A DNA stretch of 64,000 nt from Zymoseptoria tritici IPO323. Its lineage: Eukaryota; Ascomycota; Dothideomycetes; Mycosphaerellales; Mycosphaerellaceae. This document shows positions 29,574 to 30,624 of this stretch, one piece after another. Position numbers and translations under genes: made by a program. Location of the stretch: positions 2,232,001-2,296,000 of the forward strand of contig NC_018215.1 in the NCBI RefSeq assembly GCF_000219625.1, in the 5' to 3' direction. The notes beneath the pieces were generated by a model. It searched no databases and had not been told where the DNA came from. It saw only the letters and a list, made by a program, of their open reading frames with translations. Position 1 is the first letter of the stretch. Every line of letters starts with the position of its first letter.

Positions 29574-29987
29574 GGGAAAGGAAGTGAGTAGTGCCTGCTG
29601 AGGCACAGATCGCTACCGTGTTCAGGAGAAAGACCTTGAGCGGTCGGAGGCGATTGGATATCTTTTGGAAAGTCAGCATTCTGGTTTAGCGATGGCGTTG
29701 AAAGGCATGCATGGCAGGGAAGCTCTCCCATCTCAAGCATCGACTCGATGTCTCGAGCAACAGCGGAGCAGGTTGGTTGAACATCAGCTAGAATGTTATG
29801 ATAGATGGTATCAATACGTCCATGTAAAAGCAAGTTCCCTCATCTGTCTCATGCAAGCATTCATTTCAAGGACATGTCTCCCTCTCATAGCAGACAGTTG
29901 TCCAAGAACATAGTCTGTAGGGACCAAGGGCAAAAAGACAGACACTCTCTGTTCAAAACCTCATTCTAGGTCAGACAGAGAAAAGGC
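29574..29987. other. Intergenic stretch, 414 nt
   Basis: This lies between the MOSC stop codon and the tRNA terminator on the other strand. No further gene was recognised. Confidence 0.4.
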
Positions 29988-29992
29988 AAAAA
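29988..29992 (-). terminator. Oligo-T run after the tRNA, probable Pol III terminator
   Basis: On the minus strand five T residues follow the last tRNA base by three nucleotides (sequence after the tRNA: TTCTTTTTGCC). This is the usual position and length for a fungal RNA polymerase III terminator. Confidence 0.65.
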
Positions 29993-30042
29993 GAATAGCT
30001 GAGAACGGTTTCGATCCGTTGCCCTCCGGGTTATGAGCCCGG

Positions 30043-30095
30043 CTATTTGATTGTCAGTCCAGGTCCGAAGTTGTGGGCTAATTGATGCCACATAC
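30043..30095 (-). other. Intron 2 of the initiator tRNA gene, 53 nt, spliceosomal type
   Basis: It starts GTATGT, ends AAATAG, and carries the branch-site sequence ACTGACA about 10 nt before the 3' end. It falls exactly between the linker base 26 and the first base of the anticodon stem. Confidence 0.85.
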
Positions 30096-30105
30096 CGCGC
30101 TTCCG

Positions 30106-30157
30106 CTGTGAAGATGTTAGTTGATGGACTCGAACTCAATCGTGTGGTGGAACGAAC
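30106..30157 (-). other. Intron 1 of the initiator tRNA gene, 52 nt, spliceosomal type
   Basis: It starts GTTCGT, ends TTCACAG, and has a perfect branch-site sequence ACTAACA about 10 nt before the 3' end. It lies in the D-loop after tRNA base 15. It also contains AGTTCGAGTCC (30126-30136), which is close to a Pol III B box. Confidence 0.85.
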
Positions 30158-30172
30158 CTGCGCCACTCAGCT

Positions 30173-30624
30173 GCGAACTTTCAGATGCTCGAAAGCTCTG
30201 ATTGGATGGCGGTGTGAGAGTTATTGTTATACATGACTCTCCTGATCTGCCGCCCGATGATACGCCGAGTAATCTCCTTCGACTGCCTGACCCCTCGACG
30301 AGGATGTTGACTTGAGCAGGACATTATTGGCGAAAGGTTGAAAGCTCCTGGAAGTGTACGACAAGTCGCACTTCCCAATAGCAGTAAGAAATGGCTTGGG
30401 AAGTTACGAGAAAGTAAGGCGACCTTCAAACATCTCGAAATGCAAGTCGGCTTCAGCTCCCCACAAATCTACGTGGCCGTTCCGCGGCCGAGACCGTCCA
30501 AACATTCCCTCTCCGCTCTCTCCTATACACGATCCACTTGACATTCGTCTTCGCGCGCGACCGGACTCCTTGATCGGCTCAAACCCCTCCAAAACATCCC
30601 GTGACACCCATTTCGACCAACAAC
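30173..30624. other. Intergenic stretch, 452 nt, between divergent tRNA and GLO3
   Basis: It holds the upstream region of the tRNA gene and the promoter and 5' UTR of GLO3. The GLO3-proximal 150 nt are pyrimidine-rich. No TATA box at a defined distance from the tRNA was identified. Confidence 0.45.

Follow-up and report, generated by a model that had tools for sequence, protein, structure and literature searches.

An initiator tRNA-Met gene of Zymoseptoria tritici IPO323 (Dothideomycetes, Mycosphaerellales) is split by two introns that carry the signals of mRNA introns, and introns of the same kind recur in seven further tRNA genes of this genome. The gene is located in the window analysed here, a stretch of 64,000 nucleotides that forms part of chromosome 4 (C4; NC_018215.1, positions 2,232,001 to 2,296,000) and whose numbering is used below. 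As judged from sequence comparisons, this interpretation is well supported, and the case belongs to a class of tRNA introns of the spliceosome type in this fungus. We assign a probability of roughly 0.88 to the reading that it is a working gene whose Pol III pre-tRNA would be spliced by the spliceosome, with the same holding for a sizeable share of the tRNA genes.

Structure of the initiator tRNA gene

The initiator tRNA-Met(CAT) gene extends from position 30172 to 29996 on the minus strand, to which all features listed here belong, and comprises exons of 15, 10 and 47 nt separated by introns of 52 and 53 nt. Exon 1 (30158..30172) provides nucleotides 1-15, i.e. the 5' strand of the acceptor stem, positions 8-9, the 5' strand of the D stem and A14 G15, and includes the first part of the A box. 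Intron 1 (30106..30157; GTTCGT...ACTAACA...ACAG) is inserted at tRNA position 15/16, with its branch-site motif ACTAACA at 30115..30121; GTTCGT is not the commonest donor sequence. Exon 2 (30096..30105) supplies the remainder of the D loop, the 3' strand of the D stem and G26, and is followed at tRNA position 26/27 by intron 2 (30043..30095; GTATGT...ACTGACA...ATAG), whose branch-site motif ACTGACA lies at 30052..30058. The branch A, the 12th base counted back from the 3' end of either intron, falls at 30117 in intron 1 and at 30054 in intron 2. Exon 3 (29996..30042) contains the anticodon arm with CAT, the variable loop, the T arm with ATCGAAA, the 3' strand of the acceptor stem and A73, together with the exonic B box GGATCGAAACC (30017-30007). 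A B-box-like AGTTCGAGTCC is found within intron 1 (30126..30136), a run of five T residues, likely the Pol III terminator, 3' of exon 3 (29988..29992), and a TATA-like element upstream of the gene at -59 (30228..30231). The first-pass annotation had described segments of 15, 10 and 47 nt that join into a 72-nt initiator tRNA with full stems, separated by GT...AG segments with these two branch sequences in the D loop and before the anticodon stem, outside the canonical site; its coordinates and both intron positions proved exact.

ARAGORN identified the spliced 72-mer as a tRNA-Met(CAT) in which each of the four stems is paired and the T loop reads ATCGAAA. Eukaryotic initiator tRNAs are distinguished by A1:U72, a GGG/CCC anticodon stem, CAT and A54 in the T loop, and each of these hallmarks is present in the sequence and the ARAGORN drawing. 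The comparison of spliced with unspliced DNA suggested by the first-pass annotation showed that tRNA-Met was called only with both introns removed (score 117.9 in the 124-locus scan described below), the unspliced gene yielded no tRNA, and neither half-spliced form yielded a tRNA-Met, one of them giving a spurious tRNA-Val when ordinary introns were allowed. A standard tRNA scan over the whole 64-kb window called no tRNA. Four placements of intron 1 and two of intron 2 leave the product unchanged, and exactly one placement of each intron has GT-AG ends. The predicted fold of the unspliced transcript is moderately stable (z -2.33).

Scan for interrupted tRNA genes

The analysis was performed on a single genome (39,686,251 bases in 21 contigs). 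T-arm loci were collected at 63 places matching GGTTCGARTCC and 98 places matching GGTTCGAYYCC. From the first group, 62 of 63 were read, the 63rd (C1:159381) lying within L006, an intron-free tRNA-Arg; from the second, 60 of 98 were read, ten of the remaining 38 being repeats or neighbours within regions already planned. Together with the window gene and its C8 copy, these T-arm loci made up a scan set of 124, in which the Arg locus was represented by a longer version (L143). Candidate introns were defined by GTNNGT, a [CT]TRAC motif 9-16 nt before the end, and AG, and were removed singly or in combination, after which each spliced version was run in ARAGORN one sequence at a time, with ordinary introns of up to 60 nt allowed. 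Several of the interrupted genes had been spotted by eye before the scan rule was written.

A tRNA was recognised over the T arm at 15 of the 124 loci. At eight of them, one or two mRNA-type introns had to be taken out before a tRNA appeared, or before it attained a better score and a sensible identity. This set comprises iMet, Ile(AAT) twice, Gln, Asp, His, Arg and Ser. ARAGORN scores after splicing were 118.1 for Ile-a, 118.7 for Ile-b (two introns removed), 118.2 for Gln(CTG), 108.1 for His(GTG), 103.7 for Ser(AGA), 113.4 for Arg(TCT) (two introns removed; its acceptor stem needs three G-U pairs) and 110.6 for Asp(GTC), as against 105.4 for the unspliced misreading of the latter as Arg. Reading L146 by eye, we placed a further Ser intron within the acceptor stem; the tRNA then ends in TCG, as does the Ser(CGA) gene. 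The other seven loci need no mRNA-type intron: L081 (Leu), L096 (Ser(CGA)), L112 (Trp), L187 (Val), L190, the odd locus L106 and the C8 initiator copy. L190 was called Tyr in the 124-locus scan and Val when longer introns were allowed.

An Rfam tRNA search of the genome, in which 63 of 1206 candidates were scored, was dominated by repeats: 28 of the 30 loci taken resembled tRNA-Cys(ACA) or Tyr(ATA). Such copies (L003-L005, L007-L012, L014-L032 and others) differ mainly by C/T and G/A exchanges and probably represent a tRNA-derived repeat hit by repeat-induced mutation. Under relaxed rules with single introns, L149, L181, L154, L089, L202 and L106 gave no convincing gene with an mRNA-type intron and were not counted as such. 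L149 (C1:341131) and L181 (C6:231382) have perfect T arms and acceptor-like 3' ends, their 5' halves were not found, and L149 is preceded by CTAAC...CACAG; both are possibly further intron-containing tRNA genes. L089 and L154 (C1 ~4796400 and ~4796889) are tRNA-like neighbours 489 bases apart, whose middles are full of short hairpin-like repeats such as CAGGCTTGTCCTG and resemble a tRNA intron enlarged by tandem repetition. At L127 (C11 ~809149-809284), the 3' half of a tRNA stands alone within ~60 bases downstream of a Ser-like tRNA gene that it resembles, and has a T run of its own.

Properties of the introns

The 12 mRNA-type tRNA introns were compared together with two introns of the U6 snRNA gene described below. 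All 14 have the form GTNNGT...AG, and the branch motif is CTRAC in 13 and TTAAC in one. Counted back from the intron end, the branch A is base 12 in 11 introns, base 13 in two and base 10 in one, the scan having allowed the motif at 9-16. Intron lengths fall between 50 and 60 nt in 13 of 14 cases, the Gln intron measuring 83 nt, and TTTT is absent throughout, as is required of a Pol III transcript. Because the scan itself demanded a GTNNGT donor and a branch motif placed at 9-16, these two points hold partly by construction for the scanned genes; the exact distance of 12, the missing TTTT, the narrow length range and the fit to a tRNA lie outside the rules. When the search was relaxed to any GT or GC donor for Ile-a and His, the same boundaries remained best. 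The same branch distance was found five times in a window-wide motif scan, where block shuffles gave 0.5; intron 2 of the initiator gene should be among the five, and the excess is as expected from the mRNA introns of this genome.

The tRNA introns, numbered by eye, interrupt positions 5/6, 8/9, 11/12 (twice), 15/16, 19/20, 26/27, 30/31, the variable arm, 68/69, 69/70 and 70/71, and none of the 12 occupies the canonical position 37/38. Ordinary 37/38 introns were drawn by ARAGORN in three of the intron-bearing genes (Asp, 17 nt; His, 28 nt; Ser, 25 nt). In Ile-a and Arg, an apparent 37/38 intron was read by eye, where ARAGORN draws a long variable loop instead. The catalytic core of group I and group II introns comprises several hundred nucleotides, for which introns of 50-83 nt are too short.

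Paralogous gene copies

Both Ile(AAT) genes (Ile-a on C1 and Ile-b on C4) are split at 11/12 by introns that differ in sequence, and the spliced tRNAs are identical over 74 nt once a 13-nt insert of Ile-a at 37/38 is left out. Ile-a is continuous (AGGGACCA) where Ile-b reads AGGG|GTATGT...ACAG|ACCA, its second mRNA-type intron, which follows base 69. A genome search with the 74-nt product found two places, a count that may be a lower bound; both were split at 11/12, and no intron-free Ile(AAT) copy was among them. A second Ile-b T arm and AGGGGTAT occur 676 bases from Ile-b (L175 and L176; C4 723666 and 724342), with the rest of the tRNA absent.

The first-pass annotation had also named an uninterrupted initiator gene elsewhere in the genome as part of what would speak against its reading, and this situation is half realised. 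When the genome was searched with a 351-nt initiator query, only the window gene and one place on C8 were found. The C8 paralogue (L002 1475-1552) lacks mRNA-type introns and is contiguous where the window gene splits, but its anticodon loop contains six extra nucleotides, its D stem includes an A-C pair and the 75 nt upstream are devoid of TATA-like elements, and a fully intact initiator copy was not found in the genome searches. It scored 49.8 bits with the Rfam tRNA model and 106.7 in ARAGORN, the latter with a 6-nt intron. Relative to the window gene, whose acceptor stem reads AGCTGAG...CTCAGCT, two acceptor pairs and the first anticodon-stem pair are changed on both sides and are still paired. 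If its 6-nt insert is removed, the C8 copy might supply some initiator tRNA. Since the C8 initiator copy and Ile-a are contiguous at the respective sites, they confirm the exon boundaries.

Word searches gave a similar picture. The initiator anticodon-plus-T-arm word has a single genomic occurrence when up to three mismatches are allowed, and the uninterrupted D-arm word occurs only on C8 with no mismatch and at 347 places with up to two mismatches (481 in a backward control; the mismatched places were not inspected singly). GGATCGAAACC is present at 21 genome places, compared with 12 in the backward control, and is accompanied by a correctly spaced CAT anticodon stem only at C4, the stem of the C8 copy being displaced relative to it by the insert. 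An origin of the C8 gene as a retrocopy was suggested by ATTCTTTTTGCCTTTT 3' of both copies and was rejected, because CTTTTTGCC also follows other tRNA genes and a common 3' context is thus no evidence of retroposition. The CTTTTTGCC terminator context is common to several tRNA genes and tRNA-like loci (window 29985-29993; L002 1564-1572; L096, L151, L181 and L187).

U6 gene and promoter elements

Two mRNA-type introns of 51 and 50 nt were found in a gene at C8:1401438 (minus strand; L074), which we take to be the U6 snRNA gene by its conserved words. It was located with a third word pattern, two other U6 word patterns having given no U6 gene. The first intron lies between ACAGAGA and AGATTAGCATGGC, the second between AGATTAGCATGGC and CCCTGCAC. 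The gene is ~14 kb from the C8 initiator copy. A further U6 candidate (C1:3510835; L070) had no Rfam match and was discarded; this locus contains, at ~1500-1600, two U6-like ACAGAGAAGATTA words ~80 bases apart, the first of them inside a long inverted repeat.

U6 intron 1 contains the B-box-like GTTCGATCC, and intron 1 of the initiator gene contains AGTTCGAGTCC. In the window (128,000 positions, both strands), GTTCGANNC occurs 13 times, so that ~0.07 occurrences would be expected over the 14 introns, in which two were seen; GTTCGANTCC occurs twice in the same positions. The GTTCG of the intronic box of the initiator gene starts 30 nt from T8, compared with 149 nt for the exonic B box and 44 nt in the mature tRNA, so that intron 1 of this gene places a candidate B box at a tRNA-like distance from the A box, in the manner of S. 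pombe U6. We read the intronic B-box-like sequence as a putative promoter element that has moved into the intron, as in the S. pombe gene. Common descent of the first introns of the initiator and U6 genes was considered and set aside as weak: none of 2000 plain shuffles scored as high, but 115 of 5000 motif-keeping shuffles did.

In each of the eight intron-bearing tRNA genes, a TATA or TATT word lies between -37 and -59; by arithmetic, such a word is expected by chance in about one of two 75-nt stretches. All eight likewise have a run of 4-6 T residues within 43 nt after the last exon.

Alternative explanations

A chance arrangement of splice signals around coincidentally tRNA-like exons is scarcely conceivable, common as GT or CTRAC alone may be. 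When the flanks were shuffled with the T arm kept, 0 of 992 loci gave a tRNA after splicing only and 1 of 992 an unspliced one, and candidate introns were rarer in the shuffles (63 in 992 shuffled loci compared with 25 in the 124 real ones). An earlier scan with looser rules, run with ARAGORN in batch mode, recovered six of the eight genes and returned one spliced-only and one unspliced tRNA in 1240 shuffles. A single tight architecture is, moreover, common to the 14 introns, and boundaries are confirmed by the intron-lacking paralogues. Alternatively, the tRNA splicing endonuclease might cut these ectopic introns at bulge-helix-bulge motifs, with joining by tRNA ligase, as in Cyanidioschyzon or Crenarchaea. 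Such introns are known in other lineages (PMC3978253), and several of the present genes also seem to have an ordinary 37/38 intron, which this enzyme would process. At all 12 tRNA junctions, however, at most two of four central-helix pairs were found (under strict geometry only and with no positive control, relaxed forms being possible), and endonuclease cleavage gives no reason for a donor, a branch motif at a fixed distance and an AG to recur. We consider this explanation highly improbable.

The window gene could also be a dead or unspliced relic, with the C8 copy giving initiator tRNA after loss of its 6-nt insert. The absence of mRNA-type introns from the C8 copy, its Rfam and ARAGORN scores and the three doubly changed, still paired base pairs in its acceptor and anticodon stems are in keeping with this idea. 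It is nevertheless very unlikely, since the window exons contain no broken pair, the C8 copy is the one with a D-stem A-C pair and without a nearby TATA-like element, and good splice signals are not expected to persist in a relic. The class recurs, in addition, in other genes, among them Ile(AAT), of which the genome search returned no copy free of introns.

Proposed processing pathway

The intron-bearing loci are thus most likely, on the strength of their sequence features, genes for Pol III pre-tRNAs that would be spliced by the spliceosome. Pol III would transcribe the initiator gene from the upstream TATA-like element, the divided A box and a B box, for which intron 1 holds one candidate, and would stop at the T5 run 3' of exon 3. 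The primary transcript would be too interrupted for tRNA folding until the spliceosome had excised two short, putatively U2-type introns; the joined 72-mer would then undergo normal end-trimming and CCA addition and probably serve in translation. The first-pass annotation had suggested that this tRNA may be spliced by the spliceosome, a proposal that gains support from the splice sites, the branch site and its distance to the AG, the intron size, the U6 introns and the recurrence in seven other tRNA genes. The pathway would apply likewise to a sizeable share of the tRNA genes of this fungus (Ile, Gln, Asp, His, Arg and Ser), and those with an additional apparent 37/38 intron would depend on the tRNA endonuclease as well as on the spliceosome.

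Since the introns found in these tRNA genes appear to be of the mRNA kind, tRNA production in this fungus probably depends on the mRNA-splicing machinery. It is quite likely that Z. tritici, and perhaps its relatives too, has made much of its tRNA repertoire subject to the spliceosome, given that 8 of the 15 genes recognised in this sample are concerned, including the best initiator gene and both Ile(AAT) genes. If so, translation would depend on the spliceosome twice, via mRNA and via tRNA, and the maturation of some pre-tRNAs would require both systems of splicing.

Relation to known systems

Nuclear tRNA introns, removed by tRNA endonuclease and ligase, and mRNA introns, removed by the spliceosome, are generally regarded as belonging to two separate systems. 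Spliceosome-dependent tRNA genes would join the two, would make the supply of tRNA, and with it the initiation of translation, directly dependent on splicing activity, and would imply that the spliceosome is able to act on several classes of Pol III transcript. The mRNA-type introns would also explain why standard tRNA finders overlook genes in this fungus. Because tRNA structure and paralogues restrict the exon boundaries to few choices, such genes offer a rigid test bed for recent intron gain.

The closest parallel is provided by fungal U6 snRNA genes. In Schizosaccharomyces pombe, the U6 gene has an mRNA-type intron with the B box inside it. The genes described here likewise combine short mRNA-type introns in a Pol III small-RNA gene with a candidate B box in the first intron; unlike in U6, the hosts are tRNAs of several isoacceptors, and the introns interrupt acceptor, D, anticodon and variable regions, in some cases beside an apparent ordinary tRNA intron. 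Canonical GT-AG introns in small structured RNA genes are also known from fungal U3 snoRNA, and according to a 2017 paper, frequent interruption by an intron had until then been known for no small structured RNAs other than U3 and U6 (PMC5832005); tRNAs, the hosts in the present case, are absent from the list given there. Among the open-access matches listed, as represented by titles and abstract openings, there was no report of spliceosomal introns in tRNA genes, although subscription papers or preprints may hold one, and the words tRNA and intron are absent from the main text of the IPO323 genome paper (PMC3111534).

Transfer RNA genes split outside 37/38, at times more than once, are described for Cyanidioschyzon merolae, the Guillardia nucleomorph and Crenarchaea, where the ectopic introns are attributed to bulge-helix-bulge cleavage, with many Guillardia introns lacking a defined motif (PMC3978253). 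The genes of Z. tritici resemble them in this respect and differ in that strict bulge-helix-bulge motifs are absent and mRNA-type signals are present. Canonical eukaryotic 37/38 introns, finally, apparently also occur in several of these genes; they occupy another position and carry no mRNA-type signals, and the mRNA-type introns come in addition to them.
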